In this document: piece after piece, positions 19,610-34,024 of the stretch
Layout: every line of letters starts with the position of its first letter
Numbering within the stretch: the stretch's first letter is position 1
IMG/VR virus record: IMGVR_UViG_3300023181_000019
Location: 1-40,796 of that record
Length of the DNA stretch: 40,796 nt
Strand: one strand, 5' to 3'
Source: a virus
Position numbers and translations under genes: made by a program
Notes under the pieces: generated by a model
The model's input: the letters and a program-made list of their open reading frames with translations, nothing else
What the model was told of the DNA's origin: nothing
Databases searched by the model: none

Positions 19610-19667
19610 AATTTTTGGTTTGAAATTCTCGCCTACTCTATTCAGTTTTCGGCTTCCCTGTTTATAT

Positions 19668-21073: not shown

Positions 21074-21104
21074 ATATTTTTAATTCTTGACAAGTGGTAC
21101 ACAT

Positions 21105-21815: not shown

Positions 21816-21825
21816 AACGTAAAAA

Positions 21826-21899
21826 CCCGCAATCAAAAAGGTCGTCGTCTTTTATCCTGCGGGAATTTTAAAATATTTTTATTGTAGCGACGACTCTAC
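21826..21899 (-). promoter_or_regulatory. Kissing-hairpin attenuator leader of the 21815 HNH gene
   Basis: RNA order on the minus strand: hairpin 1 with stem GTAG/CTAC (21896-21899, 21884-21887) and loop AGTCGTCG; about 20 nt of A/U; hairpin 2 with stem CCCGCA/TGCGGG (21858-21863, 21826-21831) followed by five U. The hairpin 2 loop (21832-21857) holds CGACGAC (21841-21847), perfectly complementary to GTCGTCG of loop 1. The start codon is 10 nt after hairpin 2. It may control termination and ribosome access. Confidence 0.7.
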
Positions 21900-21904
21900 T
21901 AACG

Positions 21905-21912
21905 CAAATATA
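21905..21912 (-). promoter_or_regulatory. Candidate promoter of the HNH/methyltransferase unit
   Basis: TATATTTG on the minus strand, matching TAnnTTTG, 5 nt before hairpin 1 of the leader, so the transcript should begin at the hairpin. It lacks TTG at -33. Confidence 0.55.
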
Positions 21913-22488
21913 CTACTTAAATTCTTTAATTTTTATATCGTATTGCATTTTTTTAGCAATCAATTCTTCTTTGGTGTACTTGTAAACTCTTTTTGCATCA
22001 GAAATACTTTCCAGTTCCTCAATATAAGCCAATCCGTAGCGTTTAATCAATCCTTTACGGTATTCTGGTATATTTCCGTGAAAGAACACATTGCATTGCT
22101 TACACGCCTTATGTACGTTTTTCTCATTGAATATTAATCCTGAATATTTATTGCAGTCAAAATAATGTGAAGCGTGCCATTCAGTAGCTGTATTTGTACC
22201 GCATGAAATACATTCTAATTCTGCATCACGAAGCCTTATAAATTTTTGAAATGATTTTTTTGCTTCGGCTTCATATTCTGATAAAGTTTTCAACTTTTCA
22301 CGCAATACTTTAGTTTCTTCCCTTGAATTTTTTTCTTTTGAAAGCTTCACTTTCTCCATTGCTTTTTTAATCAAAATATTCTTTGCTTCTGTTCCTGCTT
22401 GTTTGCATTCAGGAGTAGATTCGCAAAATCTGTAGTTGAATATTTTTTGCTCGAATTTCTTTCTGCAGAATTTGCAATTAGCTATCAT
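21913..22488 (-). CDS. ninG: NinG-like recombination protein
   Basis: 191 aa. An N-terminal zinc ribbon is CKFCRKKFEQ, a helical Lys-rich linker follows, and the C-terminal domain has LECISCGTNTATEWHASHYF and NVHKACKQCNVFFHGN, the zinc-binding HNH-like core of NinG/Rap, which acts on recombination intermediates. It starts in an ATGA overlap with the upstream YopX gene and ends directly before a new promoter. Confidence 0.88.
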   Translation of the reverse strand: MIANCKFCRKKFEQKIFNYRFCESTPECKQAGTEAKNILIKKAMEKVKLSKEKNSREETKVLREKLKTLSEYEAEAKKSFQKFIRLRDAELECISCGTNTATEWHASHYFDCNKYSGLIFNEKNVHKACKQCNVFFHGNIPEYRKGLIKRYGLAYIEELESISDAKRVYKYTKEELIAKKMQYDIKIKEFK

Positions 22489-22859
22489 AATAATTCAGGA
22501 TTTTCGTAAATGTTTCCGATAATTTTTAATGCCCCGCAAGTTCTTGATAAGCGAATACTGCTATTATTTTTTTTCAAATAGTAAGCACCGTCTGCAAAAA
22601 TAACTTCGTGAGCATCATTTCCATATCCCTTTATTAAGTCTCCTTCATAAATGCTTATTCCATCTATGTCTTTTATTCCTGAAGACTGCATTAGTTTTAT
22701 GTTTCTGTTATCGGGATAATCGTTTTCAACTGATAAATACAATTCAAAATATCCTTCTGAAAAGGAAAAGAAAAAATCATTTCTATTATTATCCTTATCT
22801 GTGTAAAGCATTTCAGAACTATCAATGTCCCAAGCTCTAAATTTTATTTCTCTATTCAT
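22485..22859 (-). CDS. YopX-family protein (copy A)
   Basis: 124 aa, starting NREIKFRAWD and ending GNIYENPELL, the termini of the YopX family, small phage proteins of unknown function. The middle is divergent, with GDLIKGYGNDAHEVIFADGA. It is one of four paralogues here. Its last codons overlap the NinG start by ATGA. Confidence 0.88.
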   Translation of the reverse strand: MNREIKFRAWDIDSSEMLYTDKDNNRNDFFFSFSEGYFELYLSVENDYPDNRNIKLMQSSGIKDIDGISIYEGDLIKGYGNDAHEVIFADGAYYLKKNNSSIRLSRTCGALKIIGNIYENPELL

Positions 22860-22903
22860 AATACTATTTTTAAAAATTAGGGTTGCTTTTGTTGTTTACT
22901 TTT

Positions 22904-23095
22904 TTATAAATATTTAGATAATTTGTCTAAAATATAATTTGCATAAACAGACATTTTTTTATTAATTCCTCTTAAAGCTATTGCCATTTTATATCTTCCA
23001 ACAACAATAGGTGGTTGTTTATATAGCTTTGGATTTTTATAATAATCAATTATAACCATTCTTTCATAAAAATCGAATAATATTTTATTTTTCAT
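22904..23095 (-). CDS. 63-aa hypothetical protein
   Basis: MKNKILFDFYERMVIIDYYK is basic and aromatic. No family is recognised. It starts 5 nt past the DnaA-like gene stop. The start could instead be the Met at residue 13. Confidence 0.55.
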   Translation of the reverse strand: MKNKILFDFYERMVIIDYYKNPKLYKQPPIVVGRYKMAIALRGINKKMSVYANYILDKLSKYL

Positions 23096-23100
23096 AATTT

Positions 23101-23463
23101 CTAAATAAATGAGTTAGTATAGTTTTCTGCCATTTTCAATAAGTCGATGCTTTCCGGAATTAGCTTATTGCATTCGAAAAGCTTTGAAATAATTTCTTCT
23201 ATCTCTTTTTTTAATATTGGATAAATTGTCATTTCAATTTTGATCTTGTTTCTTCCGTGAAGATAGCTAGAATGTTCACGTTTTACCGTTTCGCTTATCT
23301 TTTCATTTGTGAGTTCCGTAAATTCCCCGCAAAGGTAAAAGTAAACGTGTCTTGCCTTAGCTATGTTTTTATTTCTTAAACTGCTTTTTATAAGCTTTTC
23401 TTCAATATAAAAATAACTGCAGACAGTATCTAAAATCTTAGTTGTTGGCAGATTAGGTTTCAT
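23101..23463 (-). CDS. DnaA domain IV-like DNA-binding protein
   Basis: 120 aa. NIAKARHVYFYLCGEFTELT followed by NEKISETVKREHSSYLHGRN parallels the DnaA C-terminal domain ('aR-i-myL-re-t--s---IG---gR-HstV-ha--ki'). It has no ATPase domain, so it is a stand-alone DNA-binding module, perhaps recognising an origin sequence. It overlaps the upstream replication gene by 11 nt. Confidence 0.65.
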   Translation of the reverse strand: MKPNLPTTKILDTVCSYFYIEEKLIKSSLRNKNIAKARHVYFYLCGEFTELTNEKISETVKREHSSYLHGRNKIKIEMTIYPILKKEIEEIISKLFECNKLIPESIDLLKMAENYTNSFI

Positions 23464-24310
23464 AAAATATATTTTCTTGGTTAGCCAATATCTTTGAAAC
23501 GAAAAATTCTTTTAGCACTAATTTTTTAGCTCGCAAAATAATTGAATTATCCGTTTTTTCTTCGATAGCCTTAAGATTTTCATTGAGGTTAAATAAATTT
23601 CCCTTATCCAATCCTAATTTGGCTTTATAAATTTCATTTTTCTTTTCAGCTATTAGTTCTTTTTGCGCTTCATAAATTTTTCTGTTGTAGTAAGCGTTAA
23701 GCTTTGGCGTGTTTTCGTTTGGAACTTTAATCAAAGCGTTTTCAACTAAAATTTCATAAATGTAAGTCAATCCATCGGGCAATGATTGTGATTCTTTAAA
23801 TTCATTGTAAACACGGTTTACTGCTTTTTTATTAATATCTTCTTTTGCTGAATTAGTAATTACTTCAAGTTTAGGTTTTTCAATTGATTCAGGAATATAA
23901 TTTATTAACTGATTATTACGATATTCGATATAAGAATAAAGAACTTCCCCAACAACAACACAATCAATCATTCTGAAAACTTTTACTTCAAATTGCTTTG
24001 CAACAAACATTCTAAAAGCCTCTTTTATTTCTTCTAAAGTAAGGAAGTGAAATTTATCGATAATAAAATTATAAATAAAAGCTAGATTTTTACCGTGTTC
24101 CTCTTCTGTTTCTCCAACACTTTTAACGCCGGTTATATCTAAAATAAAATTAATAGTTTCATCAACTTCACTCAAGTTCTGTATATTCCGTATCTTCAAA
24201 TAATTCTCCTTCAGTATTGCCAGTTTCGGCTTGTTGGTGTTTTTTGGCAAGATTTGAGAAGGTATCTCTGAATTTTTGCTTTGTTGCTGCTGTATTTTGT
24301 TGATTTCCAT
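23453..24310 (-). CDS. Replication-associated protein, DUF6633-like
   Basis: 285 aa. A block near residues 85-130 (FHFLTLEEIKEAFRMFVAKQ, then CVVVGEVLYSYIEYRN) is common in Bacteroidetes phage proteins encoded after replication initiators (I recall DUF6633; not verified). The C-terminal half is helical and Lys-rich. The ATG at 24310 gives a 143-nt overlap with the initiator gene in another frame; a TTG start near 24173 would largely remove it. Confidence 0.65.
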   Translation of the reverse strand: MEINKIQQQQSKNSEIPSQILPKNTNKPKLAILKENYLKIRNIQNLSEVDETINFILDITGVKSVGETEEEHGKNLAFIYNFIIDKFHFLTLEEIKEAFRMFVAKQFEVKVFRMIDCVVVGEVLYSYIEYRNNQLINYIPESIEKPKLEVITNSAKEDINKKAVNRVYNEFKESQSLPDGLTYIYEILVENALIKVPNENTPKLNAYYNRKIYEAQKELIAEKKNEIYKAKLGLDKGNLFNLNENLKAIEEKTDNSIILRAKKLVLKEFFVSKILANQENIFYET

Positions 24311-25085
24311 TTTGTAAATTTTTATTTTCTTTTATCCATTCCGCTTCAAATCCTTTCCAATCTTTTTCAATGCAGATTCTTAAAATTTGATTAATGTCTT
24401 TTCCTGATAAATAAACCTGTGAAATAAATTTGTCTAATGCAGTTTTGGTGTCGGTGGCGTTCTTTTTTTTTCTGACTTTGTTCCAGTCGTTTAACAAATC
24501 CTTTTCTGCACCTAATTTTTCTAATTCTTTGTAAAACTTAAAAATACTTTTTGTTTCTTTTTCTAAAAGAAATTCTTTTCTTTTCTTTTCTTCATCTTTT
24601 CTAATCTCATCTTCATCTTGTATTGTCTTTATATTATCTGCGATGTTTTGCGATGGTGGTGCGATTGGTATGCTATCGGTGTGCGATGCTGGTGCGATGG
24701 TTTTTGATAATTCTATTGCTTCTTCCAAAGATATTTCTTTTGCTTTAAAACGTTGATAAATAGGGTGATGCCACCTTTTTAAATTGCCAACAATGCCACT
24801 TGTGCTTTTATCTTTATAAACTTCTTTTATTTCTAAATTTTGCTCATCAAGGAATGAAATGTAAACATTTTTACTATCCTTTGTCAATATTTTTTTTGAA
24901 ATAAGAATTTCAAAGTGTTCTTGATCAATTTCAATAATTGAATCTTCAATTGATAATTCACAATCTTTATTCCAATACATACAGCATAGCCGTAAAAATC
25001 TTGCTTGTGTTATTTCAGGGCATCTTTGTATTTTTCCCATCATCCAATCACTAGGAGTAAATTTAAACCATTGCAGCTTATCCAT
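24168..25085 (-). CDS. Replication initiator / DnaD-like protein containing the origin
   Basis: 305 aa. The N-terminal winged-helix-like domain is WFKFTPSDWMMGKIQRCPEI, then TQARFLRLCCMYWNK. A low-complexity linker (residues ~130-165) is encoded by 11-bp iterons. The C-terminal helical domain is DWNKVRKKKNATDTKTALDK to DWKGFEAEW. The layout (DNA-binding N-terminus, iteron-coded linker, helicase-interacting C-terminus) parallels lambda O. The start overlaps the upstream gene by 8 nt. Confidence 0.75.
   Translation of the reverse strand: MDKLQWFKFTPSDWMMGKIQRCPEITQARFLRLCCMYWNKDCELSIEDSIIEIDQEHFEILISKKILTKDSKNVYISFLDEQNLEIKEVYKDKSTSGIVGNLKRWHHPIYQRFKAKEISLEEAIELSKTIAPASHTDSIPIAPPSQNIADNIKTIQDEDEIRKDEEKKRKEFLLEKETKSIFKFYKELEKLGAEKDLLNDWNKVRKKKNATDTKTALDKFISQVYLSGKDINQILRICIEKDWKGFEAEWIKENKNLQNGNQQNTAATKQKFRDTFSNLAKKHQQAETGNTEGELFEDTEYTELE
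24639..24703. other. Iteron array, candidate replication origin
   Basis: On the plus strand TGCGATG or close variants begin at 24639, 24649, 24660, 24671 (TGCTATC), 24682 and 24693: five spacings, four of exactly 11 bp and one of 10. The consensus is TGCGATGGTGG. The units are GC-rich in an AT-rich genome, with pyrimidine/AT-rich DNA on both sides (24518-24600 and 24700-24730) that could melt. They lie inside the initiator gene. Confidence 0.75.
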
Positions 25086-25323
25086 TTTCCACCTCCGAAC
25101 TTGTTATTTTATTTATTTCAGTACGAAGTGTTTTAGCGAACTTGATTGCTGTACTCTTGTCTAGATAAATAGCACTTGATCCCGTATATATATCACATAT
25201 TTCTATATAAATAATTCCTTCTGGAATATTTTTTCTTATAAAATTGTTTTCAGGATTCTCTCTTGTTACAGATATTGTAGATTCGTCTGTACAATCTAAA
25301 AATTTTAATTCAAATTTTGCCAT
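25078..25323 (-). CDS. 81-aa hypothetical protein leading the replication unit
   Basis: The ATG at 25321-25323 gives MAKFELKFLDCTDESTISVT. Beta-rich first half, helical end. It is the first gene after the leader at 25376-25459 and overlaps the initiator start by 8 nt. A reading extending upstream through the leader would start at a non-consensus position and is not favoured. Confidence 0.7.
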   Translation of the reverse strand: MAKFELKFLDCTDESTISVTRENPENNFIRKNIPEGIIYIEICDIYTGSSAIYLDKSTAIKFAKTLRTEINKITSSEVENG

Positions 25324-25375
25324 AATAAATAAAGGTTTTAAGTTCCAATAAACTATTAAGTTGATAAAAAAACAA

Positions 25376-25459
25376 AACTCCAATAAATCCCCGCTCATCA
25401 CTTCGGTTCATTATTGGAGTTGTTTAAGACTGAAGTTGGTATAATGTGATGAGCCAACT
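25376..25459 (-). promoter_or_regulatory. Kissing-hairpin attenuator leader of the replication unit
   Basis: The clearest of four. Hairpin 1: stem AGTTGG/CCAACT (25454-25459, 25434-25439) with a 14-nt loop. Hairpin 2: perfect 11-bp stem AACTCCAATAA/TTATTGGAGTT (25411-25421, 25376-25386), followed by UUG and seven U. The hairpin 2 loop contains GTGATGAG (25394-25401), complementary to CTCATCAC of loop 1 (25446-25453). The U-tract makes hairpin 2 an intrinsic terminator, 52 nt before the first ATG. Confidence 0.8.
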
Positions 25460-25465
25460 ACACAA

Positions 25466-25495
25466 CAAAAATACGATAATATTTGAAATACACAA
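25466..25495 (-). promoter_or_regulatory. Promoter of the replication unit
   Basis: Minus strand TTG (25493-25495), exactly 19 nt, TATTTTTG (25466-25473): a full Bacteroidetes-type promoter. Hairpin 1 of the leader begins 6 nt after the -7 box, so it should form the very 5' end of the RNA. Confidence 0.75.
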
Positions 25496-25693
25496 TCAAA
25501 TCATGTAATTTAATTTGCTTTCGATAATTTCAAATTTATATTTTTTGAAAAAAATTGAATCTATTATACAATGAAATTTATGACGTGATACGCCGGTTTT
25601 TTTTTGTATTTCAATTACAGTGTTTTCTTTTCCTGATAAATAGCAATCAGTTACCAAAACTATTTCTTCGTGGGTTAAAGTTGAGGTTGCCAT
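25496..25693 (-). CDS. 65-aa HTH-like protein
   Basis: ATG at 25691-25693 (TGATG overlap with the upstream stop). It reads LTHEEIVLVTDCYLSGKENT, then VIEIQKKTGVSRHKFHCIID, which looks like a small helix-turn-helix unit. The stop borders the replication-unit promoter. Function is unknown. Confidence 0.65.
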   Translation of the reverse strand: MATSTLTHEEIVLVTDCYLSGKENTVIEIQKKTGVSRHKFHCIIDSIFFKKYKFEIIESKLNYMI

Positions 25694-25953
25694 CACTCAA
25701 TATGGTTAATTGCGTTCTGTACTTCTGACGAGCTTAAGTTTGCATTTACAGAATCTTCGATAAGCTTGTTTTTCTTCGATGTAAGCGATTCATTTAGAAC
25801 CCTTCTAAGATTGTTCAGCACTTGTACCTTTTCAAGGTCTGTCAATTCATATTCTGTCTGTGAATTTAAGACAGCGAAAAGCTCTAAAGTTCTTCGGTTT
25901 ACTTTCTGTTCAGATGTTGGTACAGGAAAGAAATAGTTTAGTAGGTTTTTCAT
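25693..25953 (-). CDS. 86-aa helical protein
   Basis: MKNLLNYFFPVPTSEQKVNR, then a helical Leu/Asn-rich body (DLEKVQVLNNLRRVLNESL). It starts in an ATGA overlap with YopX copy B. No family is recognised. Confidence 0.65.
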   Translation of the reverse strand: MKNLLNYFFPVPTSEQKVNRRTLELFAVLNSQTEYELTDLEKVQVLNNLRRVLNESLTSKKNKLIEDSVNANLSSSEVQNAINHIE

Positions 25954-26336
25954 AATAATTCAGGGTTTTCGTGAATGTTGCCGATTACTTCCAAAGAATG
26001 CTTCCAATAATTTTTAAGATACATCCTTTGGGTTTCGTCATCTGATTTTATTTTTTCCAAGTCAAATCCTGCGTCTCCATATACAACTATACAATTGTTT
26101 GAAACACCCCCTTCTAGTTCTACTTTGCTAATTAAAATATCTCCTTCGTAAATATCGACACCGTTTTTGTCTTTCAATCCTGTGAACTGCATTAATTCAA
26201 AACTGTAAAATAAAGTGTTTATGGTTTCTTCAAAAGGAACGCATACCGTTTCTATTTCAGGAAATCCCCACATTGATGTTACTGTATTCATCGTTTTTGT
26301 GATCTGATCAAATACTCTAAATTTTATTTCTCTCAT
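25950..26336 (-). CDS. YopX-family protein (copy B, duplicated)
   Basis: 128 aa: MREIKFRVFDQITKTMNTVT to VIGNIHENPELL. It is nearly identical to the plus-strand gene 34038-34427 (six substitutions and one residue insertion; about 94% identical DNA), in inverted orientation. Homology stops at both gene ends. It overlaps the next gene by ATGA. Confidence 0.9.
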   Translation of the reverse strand: MREIKFRVFDQITKTMNTVTSMWGFPEIETVCVPFEETINTLFYSFELMQFTGLKDKNGVDIYEGDILISKVELEGGVSNNCIVVYGDAGFDLEKIKSDDETQRMYLKNYWKHSLEVIGNIHENPELL

Positions 26337-26384
26337 TTTTCAAATAAATTAAGTGATTGTTATTGTTTTCTGTTTTGTTGCTGA

Positions 26385-27059
26385 TTAAATCTTCCAGGTT
26401 TTAAATGTTCTTACAGAGTTTATTGCGCCTCTTGAAACATTATATATATCTGCTAGTTTTGAATTACTCATAACACCAACTGTTTCCCTAATGTGCTTTA
26501 CCTTATCATTATCTAATTTTGCACAAGGATGCATTACTCCTGATATAGGATTCATCAATCCTTCTTTATGCGCATGAATAGCATTTTCTGAATATGTACA
26601 CCATTCTAAATTTTCGATATTATTATCTGTTTTAATTCCACTCTTATGATTTACAACAGGTTTATTAGAATTGTTTTCTAAAAAAGCCATAGCTACTAAT
26701 CTATGCACGCTCAAAGTCTTTAAAATATTATTTTTATCTCTCAATACAACAGATGGATAGCCTACATTAGAAACCCATCCTTTTATCAATCTACTTTTTA
26801 AGAATATTTTTCGTTTTTTTATAGATATTCTTGAGCATTCTTTTGTTTTTACTCTACCCATGCTACTGACTTCATAAAATTCTTCATAACCAATAACATT
26901 TTTCCAAATTTCTCCTAAATTATTAATTGTTTCCGAATTCTTTTTTCTGGATAAACAATTTTTACACCGAGGAGTTAATCCCATATTTGCTTTCTTATGT
27001 ATTCTAAATTCTAATAATTCTTTGTATTGTAAACATTTAGAGCATTTTTTTGTTTTCAT
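26385..27059 (-). CDS. HNH homing endonuclease with NUMOD4 domain
   Basis: 224 aa. An N-terminal zinc ribbon (C6-x2-C9 and C32-x2-C35) precedes NUMOD4 (IWKNVIGYEEFYEVSSMGRV, 51-70), then the HNH core with LSVHRLVAMAFLE (His119), VVNHKSG (Asn137-His138) and NNIENLEWCTYSEN, and a C-terminal DNA-binding segment (ADIYNVSRGAINSVRTFKTW). It is a free-standing mobile endonuclease, not obviously inside an intron: no split gene was found. Its leader carries the kissing-hairpin element. Confidence 0.92.
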   Translation of the reverse strand: MKTKKCSKCLQYKELLEFRIHKKANMGLTPRCKNCLSRKKNSETINNLGEIWKNVIGYEEFYEVSSMGRVKTKECSRISIKKRKIFLKSRLIKGWVSNVGYPSVVLRDKNNILKTLSVHRLVAMAFLENNSNKPVVNHKSGIKTDNNIENLEWCTYSENAIHAHKEGLMNPISGVMHPCAKLDNDKVKHIRETVGVMSNSKLADIYNVSRGAINSVRTFKTWKI

Positions 27060-27072
27060 AATAAATAAAAAT

Positions 27073-27165
27073 GCCGAAAATTATTCAAGCGCATCTCAAC
27101 TCGCTATCCTAATAATCGGCTATAATGTTTTTAATGTTACTTTAATTGAGATGCTGTAACGTTAA
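27073..27165 (-). promoter_or_regulatory. Kissing-hairpin attenuator leader of the HNH gene at 27059
   Basis: Hairpin 1: stem TTAACGTTAC/GTAACATTAA (27156-27165, 27131-27140; 9 of 10 paired) with a 15-nt loop. Hairpin 2: GCCGATTATT (27111-27120) with AATAATTTTCGGC (27073-27085), 10 pairs and a 3-nt bulge, followed by AUUUUUAUUU. The loop of hairpin 2 contains TTGAGATGC (27091-27099), complementary over 9 nt to GCATCTCAA in loop 1 (27146-27154). The ATG is 13 nt after hairpin 2. Confidence 0.75.
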
Positions 27166-27166
27166 C

Positions 27167-27174
27167 CAAATATA
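27167..27174 (-). promoter_or_regulatory. Candidate promoter of the HNH/YopX unit
   Basis: TATATTTG on the minus strand directly before hairpin 1 of the leader. No TTG is present at -33, so it may need an activator or be weak. Confidence 0.5.
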
Positions 27175-27178
27175 ATAA

Positions 27179-27253
27179 TTATTTTCGATAAAAGCTAATA
27201 TTTCCAAGCTTAACGATTTCAATTGCTTCTTCTTTTGTTTGTGTCTTTTTCAT
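27179..27253 (-). CDS. 24-aa peptide after NinB
   Basis: MKKTQTKEEAIEIVKLGNIS plus four residues. It begins in an ATGA overlap with the NinB stop and ends just before the HNH promoter. The overlap supports translation, but the length makes it tentative. Confidence 0.4.
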   Translation of the reverse strand: MKKTQTKEEAIEIVKLGNISFYRK

Positions 27254-27693
27254 TCGTTGAAATTTAATGTTGTTTCAGTATTAGGATCTGGAATTATAAC
27301 ATTTAAAAATTCTGCGCTCCATCTTTGTATTTCTAAAATGTACTCCATAAATTCAGTAGTTGACATTTCGGAACTGCTTATTTTTTCAGAAATAACTTCG
27401 CCCGATTCTATATTTATCAATTCTTTTTCCGGAGCAAACATTTTTAAAAGTATGTTGTAATGTATGTTTTCCATTGTCCTGTATTCGCCTGTAGCTTCTT
27501 TTAAGCCGTTTTGAACTAAAGGAAGACAAACACCCCAGTAAAATTTATTTTGCTGATTAGAACGGTTCTTTTTGATTCGCTCAATTGTAAATAAACAATC
27601 CTTTCCTTCAAATCCTGAAACCGCATCAACAATCTGATTTATGTTTCTTTTGAATTTTCCATTAAGTACTGATGTTCTTATCTGTATTTTCAT
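27250..27693 (-). CDS. ninB: NinB/Orf-like recombination protein
   Basis: 147 aa. RIKKNRSNQQNKFYWGVCLP is the family signature ('k-RS-qQN-yyW---p'), with an otherwise divergent body. Orf/NinB proteins bind single-stranded DNA and support phage recombination. It lies beside the exonuclease and annealing protein and overlaps the exonuclease end by 32 nt. Confidence 0.82.
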   Translation of the reverse strand: MKIQIRTSVLNGKFKRNINQIVDAVSGFEGKDCLFTIERIKKNRSNQQNKFYWGVCLPLVQNGLKEATGEYRTMENIHYNILLKMFAPEKELINIESGEVISEKISSSEMSTTEFMEYILEIQRWSAEFLNVIIPDPNTETTLNFNE

Positions 27694-28303
27694 TGAAATA
27701 ATTTTTAAGTTCTTGGAATATTTTTGCTTTTTCCTTTATTTCGGAAATTACAAATTCATCACGATTTAATCTAAACTTAAAATACTCATTTGGTTTTATC
27801 TCTCTTATTTCGTTTTCTTCATCTTCATAAGTTTCTACCGAAAGAAAAACTAAATTTGCTTCTTTCAAATCCGAACAATACATTTGAATCATAATTTGCT
27901 CGTAGTTTTTCTTAAATTTCTTTTTCAATACTTCGGTATATTCTTTTTTAGACAATACCGTTAAAGGTTGAATAATAGATATGAAGTCAGTAAAATAAAT
28001 AGTTTTTAATTCATCAAAATCAACTATTTTTCCATTTTCAATTTTAGCAAAATCTATTGATGAGGTAAAAACATTCATTTCTTCAGAAGTTTCTTTCCAT
28101 TGGCAGAAGTAATCATTTGGCAAAATATTTAAATAATTTTTCTCCAAAATAGCGCCAGTCCTTAAAGCGTTTATAGGACTTGCTAAAGCATTATAATTAG
28201 GTTTATCATCAGACAAAAACTTTCTAATTAAATCTCTAAACCCTTGTGTTTCTTTTCCCATCATCAAAGATGAAATATCCCCACTTCCTAATACTAAATT
28301 CAT
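27662..28303 (-). CDS. YqaJ-like PD-(D/E)XK exonuclease
   Basis: 213 aa. Nuclease elements are GAILEKNYLN, then TSSIDFAKIENGKIVDFDEL followed by K (the D...ELK catalytic pair), then QIMIQMYCSDLKEANLVFLS as in YqaJ-type viral recombinases. Paired with the adjacent ERF protein, it would resect DNA ends to give single strands for annealing. Confidence 0.8.
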   Translation of the reverse strand: MNLVLGSGDISSLMMGKETQGFRDLIRKFLSDDKPNYNALASPINALRTGAILEKNYLNILPNDYFCQWKETSEEMNVFTSSIDFAKIENGKIVDFDELKTIYFTDFISIIQPLTVLSKKEYTEVLKKKFKKNYEQIMIQMYCSDLKEANLVFLSVETYEDEENEIREIKPNEYFKFRLNRDEFVISEIKEKAKIFQELKNYFNENTDKNIST

Positions 28304-28305
28304 AA

Positions 28306-28938
28306 TTAAATAAGTTTTTTATCTGTGTATGTCTTGTGAATTGTAGTTACTTGTGCATCTGTCAAGTCTGCCAAAACACCAACATTGAAATATTTCAATA
28401 TTTCCTGTAATACACTTAAGTTTGAATTAAGGTAATTTTCAATTGCAATTCTTTTTTCTGATATTGGTTTTCTTGCAGATTCCTCTTTTGATTTTTCTGC
28501 ATCCGGATCTTCGCCTGTTGCAATTTTATAAGCATTAAGCAATGCGTATTTTCTTGCGTATGTTGATGCTTTACCGAAACCTTTGTCTCCTGAATCTATA
28601 CCACGTCCAAAAGATTCTACTTCAATGAAACTTGTTACGTCATCTAAGTCAACTATTTTTAAAGTCAATTTAATTGTATCTACGTAAGTTATTCCTTCTG
28701 TATTGTCTTTTTTTAGTGTTTTTAAAATTTCTGAATTTATCAATTCCTGCTTTATCGGAACTGATGTAATTCTAAATTTAGTTTCTGCATCTTTTACAGC
28801 CAAAGTAACATCTATGTCGCTAATCGCTTTATAAGAATAATTACCAATTCCAACAGTCATTCCTTTAGATATATTTCTAATTTCATTTGATACTGATTGA
28901 ATCTTTTCGTAAATGTTTAATTTTATTTCTTCCGACAT
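28306..28938 (-). CDS. erf: ERF-family single-strand annealing protein
   Basis: 210 aa. MTVGIGNYSYKAISDIDVTL, SFGRGIDSGDKGFGKASTYA and RKYALLNAYKIATGEDPDAE are diagnostic of ERF recombinases. It anneals complementary single strands, probably during genome circularisation and recombination with co-infecting phages. It is followed two bases later by the exonuclease gene. The C-terminal tail is acidic/basic mixed as in the family. Confidence 0.92.
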   Translation of the reverse strand: MSEEIKLNIYEKIQSVSNEIRNISKGMTVGIGNYSYKAISDIDVTLAVKDAETKFRITSVPIKQELINSEILKTLKKDNTEGITYVDTIKLTLKIVDLDDVTSFIEVESFGRGIDSGDKGFGKASTYARKYALLNAYKIATGEDPDAEKSKEESARKPISEKRIAIENYLNSNLSVLQEILKYFNVGVLADLTDAQVTTIHKTYTDKKLI

Positions 28939-28940
28939 AA

Positions 28941-29210
28941 CTATATTTTATTTAATTTATGGTTAAAAAGTTCTCTTAATCTGATGTATTCACCAACACC
29001 TTCATATTCTTTTGGAGAACTCAAAGAAATAAAGTTTTCGTTGTAAATTCTCTGCATGTTTGAATTTATCCTTTGAAGTTCATTTATTGACATTCTTAAG
29101 TCTTGGATTTCTTTTTGCTCGTCGGTAAGTTCGATTACTTCGATTTCTTCTAAATTAGGAGGGAAAGCGGGGTTTTCATGTCCTAAATGTTCATTGTCAT
29201 AATTGCTCAT
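28941..29210 (-). CDS. 89-aa coiled-coil protein
   Basis: An acidic N-terminus (NPAFPPNLEEIEVIELTDEQ) precedes a coiled coil (IQDLRMSINELQRINSNMQR). It overlaps the upstream gene by 4 nt and precedes ERF by 2. No known family; an accessory recombination factor is possible from position. Confidence 0.65.
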   Translation of the reverse strand: MSNYDNEHLGHENPAFPPNLEEIEVIELTDEQKEIQDLRMSINELQRINSNMQRIYNENFISLSSPKEYEGVGEYIRLRELFNHKLNKI

Positions 29211-29428
29211 TTTTTATATTTTTTATTATATTCAATAGTTCCTTGTATTGCATTTCCTAATGCTGCACCCAAAGTCAGGGTAAAAAAAGAGATAACAATT
29301 ATTCCTATTCTTTTATCTATATCGTAATATGGTATTCTTAAAAATAAAAGTATGTCCCAATAAGCAAAACAAAAACCAAGATATACTAATACGAATAATG
29401 CAATTATTGTTGTTATTATAATTTTCAT
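29207..29428 (-). CDS. Two-helix membrane protein
   Basis: 73 aa. Two membrane segments: IIITTIIALFVLVYLGFCFA (residues ~3-22) and IGIIVISFFTLTLGAALGNA (~42-61). The function is unknown. It is encoded one base after the outer-membrane protein gene, so both may act in the envelope. Confidence 0.65.
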   Translation of the reverse strand: MKIIITTIIALFVLVYLGFCFAYWDILLFLRIPYYDIDKRIGIIVISFFTLTLGAALGNAIQGTIEYNKKYKK

Positions 29429-29429
29429 A

Positions 29430-29921
29430 TTATTTTAATTTATAGATTACATTAAAAAAAATGCTTGCTCTGAATTCTGTCTTTCCAGTATCGTACAAGT
29501 ATTTAATATCTTGTCGAAGCCTGTAATTTGCCTGTAAAGCAACCTGAACCTTTTTAGTTAGGTCATATCTTGGCTCGATGTTAAATCCGTAGTAAAGCCA
29601 GTTTGAATTTCCGTTTCTGATGATTGATCCTGTTTCAACTCCGATTGCCAAATCAACTTTATACATCGGATAAACTACCCTGTTATAACCAACTCCGTAT
29701 TGTTGGAAGTCTATTGTAGCGAAGTTTTCATACTGCATATACACTTCATTTGATTTATACGATGCGCCAACTCTGATTTGACCGTCAAGGCTTGCTTTGT
29801 TGTCCGTTGGTTTGCTTCCAATTGTAGCGTTTGCCAAATCAAATCCTAACGATACGAAAGGATAATTTTCTTGTGAAAATGCAGAGGTTGTAAATACCAA
29901 AGCGATTAATAGTTTTTTCAT
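29430..29921 (-). CDS. Outer-membrane beta-barrel protein
   Basis: 163 aa. Signal peptide MKKLLIALVFTTSAFSQ, then alternating amphipathic strands ending in aromatic residues (YGVGYNRVVYPMYKVDLAIG, EFRASIFFNVIYKLK), fitting a small eight-stranded barrel. It is encoded in the early region, away from virion genes. Phage-encoded barrels of this kind can alter the host surface or block other phages; that is inference. Confidence 0.75.
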   Translation of the reverse strand: MKKLLIALVFTTSAFSQENYPFVSLGFDLANATIGSKPTDNKASLDGQIRVGASYKSNEVYMQYENFATIDFQQYGVGYNRVVYPMYKVDLAIGVETGSIIRNGNSNWLYYGFNIEPRYDLTKKVQVALQANYRLRQDIKYLYDTGKTEFRASIFFNVIYKLK

Positions 29922-29925
29922 AATT

Positions 29926-30156
29926 TTATTTTTTATTTAGTATTAATATGTCTGAAAACCCGCAATATTTATAATCTTCGATAAATTTGTAGTTCATAAT
30001 TCCAAAAAAACCAATACTTCTGCGTAATTTTATTTTTCCCATATCAGGATAATTTTCTAAAACTTTTACTTTTCTTATTAAACCCATATCAATAAAAATA
30101 ACATCACCTTTTTTTAAGTTTTTTAGAAATTCAAATACCTCTTTACTTAATCTCAT
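29926..30156 (-). CDS. 76-aa basic protein
   Basis: MRLSKEVFEFLKNLKKGDVI, then VKVLENYPDMGKIKLRRSIG: basic, beta-rich, possibly SH3-like. Function is unknown. It is closely spaced in the early operon. Confidence 0.6.
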   Translation of the reverse strand: MRLSKEVFEFLKNLKKGDVIFIDMGLIRKVKVLENYPDMGKIKLRRSIGFFGIMNYKFIEDYKYCGFSDILILNKK

Positions 30157-30158
30157 AA

Positions 30159-30392
30159 TTACTGTTTTAAAAGTTCTTTGAATTGTTCTAGTGTTATTTC
30201 TTGATCTTCTTCTACTGTAATGCTTACATTGAAGTCTTTTTCGTTATCGAAATACAAAAAATTATAATAATCTTCTTTACACAACCAATAATCTGCACCA
30301 ATATTAAATCCAGAACCTAAAATTAATTTTTCCACTTCTTTAAGCATTTCTTCATCCTTGATGAACAATACCTTGTTTTCAAATTGTTTCAT
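30159..30392 (-). CDS. 77-aa acidic protein
   Basis: MKQFENKVLFIKDEEMLKEV is followed by an acidic C-terminus (VEEDQEITLEQFKELLKQ). It starts in an ATGA overlap with YopX copy C. Function is unknown; acidity would fit a DNA-mimic, but nothing else supports that. Confidence 0.6.
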   Translation of the reverse strand: MKQFENKVLFIKDEEMLKEVEKLILGSGFNIGADYWLCKEDYYNFLYFDNEKDFNVSITVEEDQEITLEQFKELLKQ

Positions 30393-30721
30393 AATAATTC
30401 AGGGTTTTCGTGAATGTTTCCGATGATTTCCATTTGGCTTACTAAAAAATCATTTATATAGACTACAGGCACATTTCTTCCTATAAAACCAAAACATCCG
30501 TCTCCGTAAATAAATACCCTGTTCTTTCCTTGATGAAACGCTATATCCCCCTCATAAACGTCAACTCCGTTTTTGTCTTTTAAGCCTGTGAACTGCATCC
30601 AAATGGCTTTTTCGCAACCAATATATGGGTTTAAAATACCTGAACTGCCCATGTAGTCGCATAGTTCATGAAAATACATTTTACCTTCTTGAAAAGTCCT
30701 AAATTTAATTTCTCTATTCAT
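30389..30721 (-). CDS. YopX-family protein (copy C)
   Basis: 110 aa, NREIKFRTFQEGKMYFHELC to EIIGNIHENPELL, with WMQFTGLKDKNGVDVYEGDI in common with copies B and D. The gene end repeats the same TTATTATGA junction as the other YopX genes. Molecular role is unknown. Confidence 0.9.
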   Translation of the reverse strand: MNREIKFRTFQEGKMYFHELCDYMGSSGILNPYIGCEKAIWMQFTGLKDKNGVDVYEGDIAFHQGKNRVFIYGDGCFGFIGRNVPVVYINDFLVSQMEIIGNIHENPELL

Positions 30722-30733
30722 AATTAATATTCT

Positions 30734-30880
30734 TTATAAAGGGTTAGACAATGGCAAATCAAAAACTTCATCAAACTGATTAATTTCGCTTTGCGTTTCT
30801 GTTGGTACTTCGTCGTTGATTAATCTTTCAGCCAACATTAAAAGATTTCTTTGGTTTAATTTTTCTAAAATATCGCTCAT
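30734..30880 (-). CDS. 48-aa acidic helical protein
   Basis: MSDILEKLNQRNLLMLAERL and an acidic tail. It starts one base past the HTH-like gene stop and ends 12 nt before YopX copy C. Coding-like composition and packing support it. Confidence 0.6.
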   Translation of the reverse strand: MSDILEKLNQRNLLMLAERLINDEVPTETQSEINQFDEVFDLPLSNPL

Positions 30881-30881
30881 T

Positions 30882-31118
30882 TTAAGTTATTTTAAGAGTT
30901 CCTGATATTTCGCAACCATAATCAAATCCATGAAATTCTACTGATTTTTCCCCTGTAAGCTTTGCGTATTTGCTTATCATTTCCAACCCGTTAGCACGTC
31001 TGTAATCACGGCTCAAAACGTCCTGCCTTACTCCTGCATATATTGCAAGTTCTTTTCTTTTGCCGAAAGGGTATTTTGCATCTACCCAATTTTGAAATGT
31101 TGTTTTTTTATCTGACAT
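30882..31118 (-). CDS. HTH-like small DNA-binding protein
   Basis: 78 aa from the ATG at 31116-31118 (MSDKKTTFQNWVDAKYPFGK), two bases past the upstream stop. KRKELAIYAGVRQDVLSRDY, then RRANGLEMISKYAKLTG suggests a lambda-repressor-like helix-turn-helix. It may regulate the early operon whose promoter lies just upstream. Confidence 0.65.
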   Translation of the reverse strand: MSDKKTTFQNWVDAKYPFGKRKELAIYAGVRQDVLSRDYRRANGLEMISKYAKLTGEKSVEFHGFDYGCEISGTLKIT

Positions 31119-31120
31119 AA

Positions 31121-31339
31121 TTACATTTTTTCCAAAATATTTATACATGATTCCATTTTTCTAGTAATATTTTTTTTAAAATAGTCTGAATCTAACAAGT
31201 TAGCCATAGAATATGAAGCTTCTAAAAAATTAATAATAGTTTCTTTTAATTCAATTTGGTTTGACCTTATTATTTCCTCTTTAACTGTATCGTTACTTAA
31301 CTCAATGCCCCAAGATGAAGTTCTTGTTTGTATTTTCAT
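31121..31339 (-). CDS. 72-aa helical protein
   Basis: MKIQTRTSSWGIELSNDTVK, then long helices (IELKETIINFLEASYSMANL). No family is recognised. It belongs to the first genes of the early unit. Confidence 0.6.
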   Translation of the reverse strand: MKIQTRTSSWGIELSNDTVKEEIIRSNQIELKETIINFLEASYSMANLLDSDYFKKNITRKMESCINILEKM

Positions 31340-31341
31340 AA

Positions 31342-31563
31342 TTATTTAGTATATGCGTTAATATAAAATTCTGAATTGTCACCTTTGTATTTTTTAACCA
31401 TTGTAGAGGCAAAAGCTATTTGTTTTGAATCTCCTAATATAATCAAAGAACTGAAAGTTTGTAAATCTTTATCGCCTTCAAGTTCCCAAATATTAATTAC
31501 ATTATCAATTTGTTTATCAGTAAATTCTAATGTTGTATTGTAAAGTTTTTCTAAAAAATTCAT
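31342..31563 (-). CDS. 73-aa protein, first early gene
   Basis: MNFLEKLYNTTLEFTDKQID, then NVINIWELEGDKDLQTFSSL. It is the first ORF after the promoter at 31596 and is therefore probably among the earliest expressed proteins, a position often used by host-takeover factors. No family is recognised. Confidence 0.65.
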   Translation of the reverse strand: MNFLEKLYNTTLEFTDKQIDNVINIWELEGDKDLQTFSSLIILGDSKQIAFASTMVKKYKGDNSEFYINAYTK

Positions 31564-31595
31564 AATAAATATATTTTTTTTGTTATTAACTTGTA

Positions 31596-31624
31596 CAAAT
31601 ATACAACTATTTATTAATTGTCAA
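31596..31624 (-). promoter_or_regulatory. Main early promoter with operator dyad
   Basis: Minus strand TTG (31622-31624), 18 nt, TATATTTG (31596-31603). The stretch TAGTTGTATATTTGTAC matches the 19857 promoter (TAGTCGTATATTTGTAC) at all but one base. The dyad TTGTA-N6-TACAA spans the -7 box. Confidence 0.8.
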
Positions 31625-31660
31625 ATTGTAAATATGTTAAAGTTTAAAATTAAAGCAAAC

Positions 31661-31693
31661 AAAAAACCCTAACACTTGTAAATGCTAGGGTTT
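31661..31693 (-). terminator. Intrinsic terminator after the spanin gene
   Basis: A perfect 8-bp stem AAACCCTA/TAGGGTTT (31664-31671 and 31686-31693) with six U on the minus strand closes the lysis unit just before the early promoter. Between the spanin stop (31722) and 31564 only this hairpin and the promoter are present. Confidence 0.9.
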
Positions 31694-31721
31694 AAGATTA
31701 AGATATTTTTGAATTGCTATC

Positions 31722-32204
31722 TTATTTTGATAAGTTTTTTGCTATTTCCGATATGGCTATGCTGTTTTTATTTATTGTTTTGTACATTAAAAATAAAGCG
31801 ATACCGCCTAAAATTGTGATCATTCCGAAACCGTATAAAATCCAGGTCGTGTTGACTTCTTCTTTTTTAACGGAATCCTTTTCTTTGATGAATTCTTTTA
31901 GTTCTCTGTTTTCCTTTTTAAATTCCTCTATAACCGATGCAAAGCAATCTATTGACTTTATCTGACCTTGTGTATTGTAAACGGTCTTTAAAGTAGTTCC
32001 CTGTCTGTTTGTGGTGTATATTGTAGTGTCTTTATAAGTTATTTTTGGAACTAGATAAGTAACCGTATCGCCTTTACGGAAAGTCTTTGTTTCAATCTGC
32101 TCTTTAAAGTCAGTATCTGTTTTTGACTTTGAAGACTGTTTGTAGATGTCGCAGGACTGAAACATTAAAGTTAAAACAAGTATTTTAAATATTGAGCTTT
32201 TCAT
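31722..32204 (-). CDS. Single-protein (unimolecular) spanin candidate
   Basis: 160 aa from the ATG at 32202-32204, in ATGA overlap with the upstream 42-aa gene. N-terminal lipoprotein signal KILVLTLMFQSC (Cys18), periplasmic domain with beta-rich then coiled-coil part (EEFKKENRELKEFIKEKDS, 93-111), and C-terminal membrane helix WILYGFGMITILGGIALFLM (121-140). This topology is that of u-spanins, which bridge outer and inner membranes and fuse them at lysis. Location after endolysin and holins agrees. Confidence 0.75.
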   Translation of the reverse strand: MKSSIFKILVLTLMFQSCDIYKQSSKSKTDTDFKEQIETKTFRKGDTVTYLVPKITYKDTTIYTTNRQGTTLKTVYNTQGQIKSIDCFASVIEEFKKENRELKEFIKEKDSVKKEEVNTTWILYGFGMITILGGIALFLMYKTINKNSIAISEIAKNLSK

Positions 32205-32329
32205 TTCTTGCAAAATTTAATTTTACGCCTTTCAGAACGATTTGGAATAGTGTTTTCTTTTAGGTCTTCGTGTTTTATAGTTAAATATTGAAGTCCTAGT
32301 ATTGGGTGGTAGTAGAAATTTGTTTGCAT
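32201..32329 (-). CDS. 42-aa basic protein in lysis block
   Basis: MQTNFYYHPILGLQYLTIKH then a lysine/arginine-rich end. It overlaps the spanin start as ATGA. It follows a promoter-hairpin leader (32351-32435). There is no membrane segment or lipobox, so it is not an Rz1-like partner. Confidence 0.55.
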   Translation of the reverse strand: MQTNFYYHPILGLQYLTIKHEDLKENTIPNRSERRKIKFCKK

Positions 32330-32350
32330 ATTTTTTTATTCAAATGTAAA

Positions 32351-32382
32351 CAAAAAACCTCACTAAATTAATAATGAGGTTT
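32351..32382 (-). terminator. Terminator hairpin before the spanin unit (attenuator candidate)
   Basis: An 8-bp stem AAACCTCA/TGAGGTTT (32355-32362, 32375-32382) is followed by UUUUUUG. It lies 46 nt from a TATGTTTG box and 25 nt before the 42-aa gene, the same layout as the portal leader, but loop-to-leader complementarity is not convincing here. Confidence 0.75.
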
Positions 32383-32427
32383 TGTAAAATTCAATGTTGT
32401 TTTGTTGATCACTAAATTTTTAAAAGA

Positions 32428-32435
32428 CAAACATA
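32428..32435 (-). promoter_or_regulatory. Candidate promoter for the spanin unit
   Basis: TATGTTTG on the minus strand, the same -7 variant used by the plus-strand cassette leader. No clear -33 TTG. It lies between two terminators, which makes an independent start plausible. Confidence 0.4.
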
Positions 32436-32445
32436 CATAAATAAT

Positions 32446-32473
32446 ATAAAAAACCCGATGTTGCTATCGGGTT
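32446..32473 (-). terminator. Intrinsic terminator downstream of endolysin
   Basis: A perfect 8-bp stem AACCCGAT/ATCGGGTT (32452-32459, 32466-32473) with a 6-nt loop and six U on the minus strand. It ends the holin/endolysin transcript after the 21-aa ORF. Confidence 0.85.
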
Positions 32474-32530
32474 AATTATTAACTCAAACCATTAAGTTAT
32501 GAAAAACAAATTCAAATATACAAATTATTT

Positions 32531-32596
32531 CTATACAGAAGTGCCTCCTAATTTATTTCCGTGAACTACATCACCGTACCAAGTGTAATTTTTCAT
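32531..32596 (-). CDS. 21-aa peptide ORF
   Basis: MKNYTWYGDVVHGNKLGGTS plus one residue. An A-rich start and a terminator shortly downstream suggest a tiny expressed peptide. In the remaining gap between endolysin and spanin (32214-32660) I see only this ORF, the 42-aa gene, two terminators and two TAnnTTTG boxes (32428 and 32513). Confidence 0.4.
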   Translation of the reverse strand: MKNYTWYGDVVHGNKLGGTSV

Positions 32597-32660
32597 TTTA
32601 TTTGTTTTTAAGTTTAACCTTCCAAAGAGTGACCTTTTTTATTTTTCATGTTTTTATTTA

Positions 32661-33086
32661 TTATTTCAATTCAAAATGGGCTGGATCAAAAAGACTTTTA
32701 AAATCCCCCCCCCAAGTAACTCCAATGCCTAAACATTTAGCAACTGCCTTGATGTGTACAGAGATTAATTTAAGTTTTGGAATTACTTCTTTATCCGATA
32801 ACTGTACTTTACCATCGTAAAATGGAAATAAGTCTACAGCGTGTCCGTAGCCGTCTGATTTCGCCTGATGATTTGATTTCTTCTTTACTCCATCCGCATT
32901 GGTTACAATTTTGCCTTTAGCCGTTCTTCCTTGTGCATATAGCGACTGCTGATATTGCGTAGTTCTTACACCTTGAACAATTGTAAAGTCAACAGGACTT
33001 TCTTTGATTGCTTCTGTCATTAGTTTAACCAAATCCGGATGAACGCCTTTTAAGGTATCTAAACTTCTTTGTGAAAATTTATTCAT
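32661..33086 (-). CDS. M15 peptidase endolysin (L-Ala-D-Glu type)
   Basis: 141 aa. Zinc-site motifs: SNHQ (His73), GHAVDL (Asp85) and DPAHFEL (His137), plus GVTWGGDF before the last motif, as in VanY/M15-type phage endopeptidases that cut peptidoglycan stem peptides. A run of nine C at 32705-32713 (G9 in the gene) encodes Trp-Gly-Gly; a one-base slip would remove the last zinc ligand. No signal peptide, so release depends on a holin. Confidence 0.93.
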   Translation of the reverse strand: MNKFSQRSLDTLKGVHPDLVKLMTEAIKESPVDFTIVQGVRTTQYQQSLYAQGRTAKGKIVTNADGVKKKSNHQAKSDGYGHAVDLFPFYDGKVQLSDKEVIPKLKLISVHIKAVAKCLGIGVTWGGDFKSLFDPAHFELK

Positions 33087-33088
33087 GA

Positions 33089-33451
33089 TTATTTACGTTT
33101 AAAAAAATTAACTATACTGTCCTGTGCCACATTTACCAATGAAGTAAGAAAGATGTCCACGTTAAATTTATAGATGATGAATCCCGCTATATCTTTGCTC
33201 AACATAGCAATTAAAGATAATACTCCAGGTACATATATTTCTTCGATGTGCTTATAAACTACCGCACTAAAAGCATAAACTATCCCTACTGCAATTATAA
33301 TTGAAAGCAGTACATTTATATATGATATTTTTTTATTTTCCCTTTGCATTTCTACAGCTATTTTTATACCGACGCCAATAATTGCGGGGACAATTATCTT
33401 TGTAAAAAAAGCTAAAAGCTCATTCGATAGGTTTTGTAGTCTTTCTGGCAT
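33089..33451 (-). CDS. Holin candidate, three membrane helices
   Basis: 120 aa. Hydrophobic segments KIIVPAIIGVGIKIAVEM, INVLLSIIIAVGIVYAFSAV and GVLSLIAMLSKDIAGFIIYK, with a basic end (NFFKRK). The position two bases before the endolysin and the three-helix layout with short basic tail match phage holins. It overlaps the upstream membrane protein by 32 nt, which could allow coupled expression of a holin and its regulator. Confidence 0.8.
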   Translation of the reverse strand: MPERLQNLSNELLAFFTKIIVPAIIGVGIKIAVEMQRENKKISYINVLLSIIIAVGIVYAFSAVVYKHIEEIYVPGVLSLIAMLSKDIAGFIIYKFNVDIFLTSLVNVAQDSIVNFFKRK

Positions 33452-33752
33452 ATCTAAGGTATGTTATAATTATCAAAATTAAGGCAAAAAAAGCCTCATT
33501 TAACCCAAATTTAGTATTATCGAAAATTGTTTCATCTAAGAAATTATTTAGAGATAAGCATAAAAGTACAAAACTAGCGACATATTTTTTATTATTCAAC
33601 CAAATAAAAAATGATAACAGTAAAAAAGCCAAAGAATTACCAAAATAATAAATCGGTATTCCCGTTTTTTCTTTTATAATATCCCAAAACATGAAAGCTA
33701 TTACCGAGACGATAATAGCTATCCATAGAATAATGTTATTTCGCTTATCCAC
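33420..33752 (-). CDS. Membrane protein, possible antiholin
   Basis: 110 aa with about four membrane helices (NIILWIAIIVSVIAFMFWDI, FGNSLAFLLLSFFIWL, VASFVLLCLSLNNF, NEAFFALILIIITYLRY). The start is GTG at 33750-33752, overlapping the previous stop by 8 nt. Overlap with the holin candidate suggests a paired role in lysis timing, by inference. Confidence 0.7.
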   Translation of the reverse strand: MDKRNNIILWIAIIVSVIAFMFWDIIKEKTGIPIYYFGNSLAFLLLSFFIWLNNKKYVASFVLLCLSLNNFLDETIFDNTKFGLNEAFFALILIIITYLRYARKTTKPIE

Positions 33753-33876
33753 GGTCTTTTGGTCGTGTTCCGATAAGTTCCAAGCCTACACGCCCTAAAA
33801 CTTCGTTTGCATCAGCGATAGCCTTATCAATTGCTAATTGGTCAATCTCATTTGGATCGGGTGTCGTTCCTGCCAT
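33745..33876 (-). CDS. 43-aa protein, first gene of lysis block
   Basis: MAGTTPDPNEIDQLAIDKAI, then ANEVLGRVGLELIGTRPKD. The start follows TTTAAA. It overlaps the GTG start of the next gene by 8 nt. Amphipathic and soluble; function is unknown. Confidence 0.6.
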   Translation of the reverse strand: MAGTTPDPNEIDQLAIDKAIADANEVLGRVGLELIGTRPKDRG

Positions 33877-33922
33877 TTTAAATATTTTTTAAGTTAGATG
33901 TAAAAGTAATGAAATTTATTTA

Positions 33923-33930
33923 TATGTTTG
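33923..33930 (+). promoter_or_regulatory. Candidate promoter of the plus-strand cassette
   Basis: TATGTTTG on the plus strand, 4 nt before hairpin 1 of the leader. No TTG at -33. It is in the divergent gap between the lysis block (minus) and the cassette (plus). Confidence 0.5.
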
Positions 33931-33934
33931 CAAT

Positions 33935-34024
33935 GTAGTTCACGACCTACGGAAAAATATAGCTAACTTTTTTAGCAATTAAAGAACCCTGCATCGTGTC
34001 GTGACTTTGCAGGGTTTCTTTTTT
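33935..34024 (+). promoter_or_regulatory. Kissing-hairpin attenuator leader of the plus-strand cassette
   Basis: Hairpin 1: stem GTAG/CTAC (33935-33938, 33947-33950), loop TTCACGAC. A small hairpin GCTAA/TTAGC follows. Hairpin 2: GAACCCTGCA (33984-33993) with TGCAGGGTTTC (34008-34018), then six U. The hairpin 2 loop holds GTCGTGA (33998-34004), complementary to TCACGAC (33940-33946) of loop 1. The hairpin-1 frame GTAG-8 nt-CTAC is the same as at 21884-21899. The ATG is 19 nt past hairpin 2. Confidence 0.7.

Follow-up and report, generated by a model that had tools for sequence, protein, structure and literature searches.

In IMG/VR virus record IMGVR_UViG_3300023181_000019 (positions 1 to 40,796, all of which was analysed and is referred to here as the window), four short leaders, denoted A to D, each present two hairpins with complementary loops ahead of a gene, raising the question of whether they form one class of structured RNA and of what pairing between the loops might do. 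A reading made from the letters alone (the sequence-only reading) had reported four leaders of shared architecture with 7-9 nucleotides (nt) of loop complementarity, and direct reading of the sequence finds all four at the coordinates that it gave. Each comprises a TAnnTTTG promoter, a first hairpin (H1) that begins 4-6 nt later at about +1, an A/U spacer, a second hairpin (H2), a T-run and an open reading frame (ORF). The loop-loop complementarity, hereafter the kiss, is perfect in every case: GCATCTCAA/TTGAGATGC in leader A (9 base pairs, bp), CTCATCAC/GTGATGAG in leader B (8 bp, or 9 bp if G25454 pairs), GTCGTCG/CGACGAC in leader C (7 bp) and TCACGAC/GTCGTGA in leader D (7 bp). Judged from sequence comparison, the kiss is real, i.e. 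evolution keeps the pairing and changes the letters, and the leaders appear widespread in phages, mainly of Bacteroidetes. On balance we lean towards the reading that these are kiss-locked terminator leaders, a class of cis-acting leader RNA that would limit readthrough into early and mobile genes.

Recovery of the four leaders from the window

Unconstrained RNA folding that took no account of the kiss yields both H1 and H2 in all four leaders, with the kissing loops largely open (z = -2.2 to -3.9), and a scan for H1, terminator and kiss ranked by energy places the four among the top five in the window. A loose pattern search that weighed neither folding energy nor the promoter gave equal counts in shuffled sequence and was dropped, and for that reason a stricter descriptor was adopted. 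With the promoter included, this descriptor recovers three of the four leaders in the window, leader A being missed through its lower-stem GC rule, and returns 0 matches in 60 Markov-shuffled windows searched on both strands.

Covariation of the stems and the kiss

Covariation was examined in alignments of 48 type II leaders (A1) and 22 type I leaders (A2), both partly selected for the kiss. In type II the lower and upper stems, H1 and the kiss all covary (94.8% of cells paired vs 67.7% when shuffled; covariation score 0.663 vs 0.172), as do the kiss and the lower and upper stems in type I (0.612 vs 0.174), where the search pattern itself prescribed H1. Because of the partial selection for the kiss, covariation was retested using kiss-blind covariance models. 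The variable kiss positions of type II were then 92-100% paired, with positions 2 and 6 paired in 66/66 distinct sequences (41% and 53% in the shuffled control) and position 1 in 92%, and those of type I were 94-97% paired; shuffled controls for the two types spanned 36-72%. The sequence-only reading had proposed a covarying RNA in which the loop-loop pair is conserved, to be checked with a covariance model, and had named homologues that keep the stems without loop complementarity as one case that would count against it. The kiss-blind matches instead retain the pairing, stems and loop pairs both covary, relatives occur in Flavobacterium phages and no Rfam family corresponds; covarying loop-loop base pairs, as expected of a kissing RNA, are seen both in these matches and in the compensatory changes of isolates described below.

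Mutual information calculated without supervision, and with no structure supplied, gives top rank to exactly H1, the kiss, the upper stem and the lower stem. It reveals no covarying helix that could serve as an alternative antiterminator, and H2 and the kiss can form together instead of competing. Since there is one compatible fold, the data give no support to a two-state attenuator of the classical sort or to an antiterminator-type switch.

H2 itself rises from a lower terminator stem to an upper stem that ends in an apical loop, and in most subtypes a non-canonical internal loop lies between the two stems. This internal loop is UCUAAAA/U in a further, F type; in type II it is UGAA/GGAU, where inspection shows tandem G-A. 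In type I it is GAGUA/GAAA, nearly invariant in 22 leaders, GAGTA..GAAAG having been part of the search pattern; AGTA/GAA variants in locus L386 were found independently of that pattern. By inspection, the type I loop may be sarcin-ricin-like.

Relatives and families

Loci of relatives were collected by protein searches with HNH, replication and YopX genes as queries and by DNA patterns describing either parts of H2 only or H1 together with the internal loop of H2, and were then scanned for the architecture. For type II, the H2 pattern occurs in 99 distinct contexts, 84 of which have a reverse complement of the H2 loop (at least 7 nt) upstream; the type I pattern, in which the kiss was left free, gave 77 distinct matches, 25 of them with an exact 7-nt complement, where re-pairing predicts 1.1 and reaches at most 5. 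The descriptor accepts 115 distinct leaders in total, from 103 contigs, and a few that have no ORF after them are probably false matches.

Stems and loops had been described as unrelated between the four loci. This does not hold for leaders A and B, which are members of a single family (model R1, with 49.3 and 68.5 bits; its training set includes both). Leader C falls in a second family (model R2, 36.3 bits, E 1.4e-4, not in training). Among isolates, relatives are carried by the Flavobacterium phages FL-1 and FCL-2, the moomin and elemo phages, and Polaribacter phage Freya; the leader of FL-1, which was outside the training set, is of type II (68.7 bits, E 9e-13), and FCL-2 and Freya_1 carry further kissing leaders. 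Leader-bearing phages include ones that can be cultivated, on Flavobacterium sp. LMO6/LMO9 and BAL314 and on F. columnare.

Searches of bacterial genomes, by protein query or by the exact type II pattern (both narrow queries), gave no copies. HNH loci of Enterococcus, Streptococcus, Lactococcus and Staphylococcus, and a crAss-like phage, had no such leader, and a general spread of leaders to HNH genes was rejected on this basis.

Two minor groupings were also observed. In a type III subtype (L236 32542-32616, L147 1008-940, L109 2283-2395 and site C of G001, a sister contig of the window) the kiss CCGCCAAG/CTTGGCGG is nearly invariant and precedes an MBL-fold gene, a methylase and others. The F-type leaders (L083, L076, L112) have TATAAT promoters and AAGGAG sites, from which their phages probably infect other, Firmicutes-like hosts. 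The kiss core GUGAGA/UCUCAC recurs with H1 holding either strand depending on subtype (L406, L407, L408 and L417 as against type II), which suggests a favoured kissing helix.

Natural variants and specificity of the kiss

In the moomin phages of Flavobacterium LMO6/LMO9 an orthologous leader lies in similar surrounding sequence, and its kiss differs by compensatory changes, occurring as GTGAGACG/CGTCTCAC, GTGGAACG/CGTTCCAC and GTGAGAAG/CTTCTCAC; such natural variants are ready-made test constructs. Leader C has a close relative in the Flavobacterium phages hattifnatt9-1 and mumin6-1: H1 is identical and the kiss is the same, and the lower stem, though wholly different, is still paired.

In G001 leader D is unchanged, leader A and its HNH cassette are absent, and sites B and C hold other genes under other kissing leaders, that at C being of the third type. 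Neither R1 nor R2 finds a match in G001, because its leaders belong to other types. At site B the promoter is kept and homology ends 5 nt before H1 (window position 25464). Whole promoter-proximal cassettes of leader plus gene are swapped between the sister phages at 25464 and at 21058-22346.

Strict self-specificity of each kiss, as first envisaged, is not supported. The type II kiss core UCUNAC is nearly invariant across leaders, such that different leaders could cross-pair, and close relatives often share a kiss. Within multi-leader genomes cross-complementarity does not exceed 4 bp, with 0/30 pairs reaching at least 6 bp vs 6% expected, so that orthogonality within a genome is suggestive but not significant. 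The idea of hypervariable, strictly orthogonal loops was accordingly set aside.

Terminator form, position and downstream genes

That H2 has the form of an intrinsic terminator is confirmed: it is a GC-containing hairpin with a U-tract directly after it, and a T-run of at least 4 follows H2 in 81/82 type II leaders against a background of 12%. F-type leaders have a Shine-Dalgarno-like AAGGAG of their own after the U-tract, which is thus more than a ribosome site; a purely translational role for the U-tract was rejected on this ground. In most leaders H1 starts 3-7 nt past the -7 box and start codons lie 3-27 nt past H2. An ORF begins within 60 nt of 107/115 leaders, compared with 107/307 other terminators on the same contigs, and a downstream gene so close by speaks for a leader that acts in cis, and against a small RNA that acts on its own. 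The distance from the kiss to the end of the U-tract is near constant (23-25 nt in type II, mostly 21-24 nt in type I, 22 nt in the F type). RNA polymerase usually covers about 14 nt of its transcript, and with this spacing the kiss would leave the polymerase just before the termination point.

The downstream genes encode replication initiators, helicase loaders, DUF6291, NUMOD4-HNH, other HNH and GIY-YIG homing endonucleases, DNA methylase, ParB-like and YopX proteins. A ribosome-mediated attenuator was considered for type II, where the string ATG-AAN-NNG-AAG-TGA might encode a leader peptide; it loses its stop in TTA/TCA members, is absent from leader A and shifts frame in leader B, and the proposal was rejected as the reading frame is not kept.

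Possible roles of the kissed leader

We infer termination, its regulation and the direction in which the kiss acts. In the kiss-locked terminator reading, RNA polymerase would start at the TAnnTTTG promoter and make H1 and then the loop of H2, and the resulting kiss-locked terminator (attenuator) would cap or time expression of the early replication genes. The same cap or timing would apply to mobile cargo, i.e. homing endonucleases, methylases and YopX, with the leader being swapped together with its cargo gene. Three observations weigh against this: the mutual information contains no competing helix and so no obvious on-state fold; the type I leaders L246, L264 and L326 keep the kiss with a broken U-tract; and the types have no ligand or protein site visibly in common. 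A more ambitious version, which we offer tentatively and think may well be wrong, makes the kiss between the 5'-terminal and terminator hairpins the decision element itself and a new principle across phages, whereby RNA polymerase or a kiss-binding factor would read shape and not sequence, unrelated sequences would have converged, and cargo would carry its leader as a plug-in expression controller.

The main rival, unlikely in our estimation, is a role like that of phage HK022 put, an RNA that binds the zinc-binding domain of the RNA polymerase beta-prime subunit and suppresses termination. In this reading the folded H1-kiss-H2 unit would bind the polymerase from which it emerges and make it resist pausing and termination from the leader's own H2 onwards, allowing readthrough of the early operon. 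An early transcript begins with the two stem-loops of a put element (PMC9378689). Position and gross form of the leaders resemble putL, with two stem-loops from the first nucleotides and non-canonical internal parts; the likeness to putL/putR extends to being protein-independent candidates that open phage early transcripts, which falls short of showing put membership. One rigid conserved fold without an alternative helix, and the defined internal loops AGUA/GAA and UGAA/GGAU, also fit such a role. However, the put paper (PMC9378689) mentions neither kissing nor a pseudoknot, and put has no described U-tract and acts on distant terminators, whereas here H2 has terminator form, the conserved U-tract points to real termination, and sequences vary so widely, being unrelated across types, that a single contact site on the polymerase is less likely.

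Less probable again is a leader for stability or translation, in which H1 and H2 would protect the mRNA at its 5' end and keep a U/A-rich ribosome landing site open, the terminator appearance being incidental. This would suit the location of H1 at the transcript 5' end, the nearness of start codons to H2, and those type I leaders that keep the kiss without a clean U-tract. It accounts poorly for the regularity of the U-tract in type II and its presence in F-type leaders with their own AAGGAG, and end protection needs no kiss of 7-9 bp.

We give a little less credence still to a trans-acting product, i.e. a terminated RNA of about 90 nt that would loop-pair with other leader copies, as in immunity or copy control of the P4 CI/P1 c4 kind, or form a kissing dimer. 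In P4, RNA-RNA pairing and premature termination govern the replication genes (PMC4825925), and the leaders share with P4 CI and P1 c4 a replication-operon location and RNA-RNA pairing that would be coupled to premature termination; that leaders of one genome are mutually non-complementary would also fit. Yet the processed CI RNA pairs in trans with seqA/seqC, whereas each leader pairs its own H1 with its own H2, and intramolecular kissing should win. Moreover, a gene almost always follows closely, the type II kiss core is common to different phages, and the absence of bacterial matches to the narrow type II pattern gives no sign of prophage immunity. Finally, chance occurrence of hairpins near terminators, for which the AT-rich genome and the matches of loose descriptors in shuffled sequence might speak, has a negligible probability and is already refuted, on comparative grounds, by the covariation and more than 100 relatives together with the empty shuffled windows.

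Relation to known RNAs

The sequence-only reading knew of no described class with this layout, and our searches agree. A cmscan against Rfam 15 of the window and of 13 relative loci, drawn from types I, II, III and F, gave no significant match over any leader; TEG147 on L278 overlaps best but lies far below its gathering score. No prior description was found in the literature, among open-licence papers only. The structural class appears new, and we place it with the known phage leader RNAs that act at termination. As in intrinsic-terminator attenuators and riboswitches, a terminator hairpin and U-tract lie between promoter and start codon; unlike these, the leaders have no conserved antiterminator helix, common aptamer or conserved leader peptide. 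The apical loops of about 7 nt that pair over their full length in the F type and type I recall the 7-nt kissing loops of ColE1 RNAI/RNAII, although the leader kiss is intramolecular, lies in a phage mRNA leader and has no known Rop partner. The GOLLD and ROOL phage RNAs are also held together by covarying kissing loops (PMC12286853); they differ in being hundreds of nucleotides long, in forming multimeric cages and in not being mRNA leaders.

An apparently undescribed and widespread class of structured leader over early replication genes and mobile endonucleases would concern the phages of a major bacterial phylum. To our knowledge, gene regulation in Bacteroidetes phages is poorly described. 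Such leaders could show in what way tertiary contacts within an RNA adjust intrinsic termination, and could provide small kissing parts for synthetic expression control.

Features of the individual leaders

HNH, replication and cargo genes had been assigned to the four leaders, and this stands with a correction at leader B, which precedes a small conserved ORF and only then the replication gene. Leader A (minus strand) has its -7 box TATATTTG at 27167..27174 and H1 at 27136..27160 (GTTAC/GTAAC with a 15-nt loop, kiss strand at 27154-27146). Its H2, of terminator form, spans 27073..27120 with upper stem AGCG/CGCT and kiss strand at 27099-27091; a U-rich tail (27072-27067) leads to a NUMOD4/HNH_3 homing endonuclease gene (Pfam; 26385..27059, minus).

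Leader B (minus) begins with -7 box TATTTTTG at 25466..25473, which is homologous in the sister phage. H1 (25434..25459) pairs AGTTGG with CCAACT, its kiss strand (25453-25446) being followed by ATTATA. The type II H2 (25377..25420; R1 E 3e-13) consists of lower stem ACTCCAATAA/TTTATTGGAGT, internal loop UGAA/GGA(U) and upper stem CCG/CGG, with the kiss strand at 25401-25394 and the U-tract at 25376-25366. The small ORF (phrog_33177, 25078..25323, minus) starts about 50 nt past H2, and a primosomal/replication initiation O-like protein gene (24168-25085, minus) comes after it, both assigned by PHROGs.

Leader C (minus) shares the -7 box sequence of leader A (21905..21912). H1 (21884..21899) is GTAG/CTAC with an 8-nt loop and kiss strand at 21894-21888, and H2 (21826..21863) is CCCGCA/TGCGGG with upper stem AAAAG/CTTTT and kiss strand at 21847-21841. 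The U-tract (21825-21821) is followed by an HNH endonuclease gene (phrog_3377, PHROGs; 21105..21815, minus).

Leader D (plus) has -7 box TATGTTTG at 33923..33930, H1 at 33935..33950 (GTAG/CTAC, 8-nt loop, kiss strand at 33940-33946) and H2 at 33985..34016 (AACCCTGCA/TGCAGGGTT, kiss strand at 33998-34004), with the U-tract at 34017-34024 and a YopX-family gene (Pfam) at 34038..34427, plus. As the upstream gene is divergent, the YopX gene would depend on transcription through H2. An extra small hairpin lies in the spacer between H1 and H2 in leader D (33961-33978), as in L235 and L434 (G001 site B). Four YopX-like paralogues, at 34038 (plus), 26336 (minus), 22859 (minus) and 30721 (minus), have near-identical gene 5' ends, and only that at 34038 has a kissing leader.

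Elsewhere in the window, a weak, sub-threshold match to the SpF11 small RNA at 32349-32417 (minus) is probably an ordinary hairpin or terminator. A DUF805b RNA (RF02914) lies at 19630-19662 (minus) and, at 39.5 bits, exceeds the gathering score. It resembles the leaders in being a small cis-regulatory RNA of the same phage; as an explanation of them it was rejected, since it matches at 19662-19630 and over none of the four leaders, and has a different structure. It stands about 20 nt ahead of a 61-amino-acid ORF (19424-19609).

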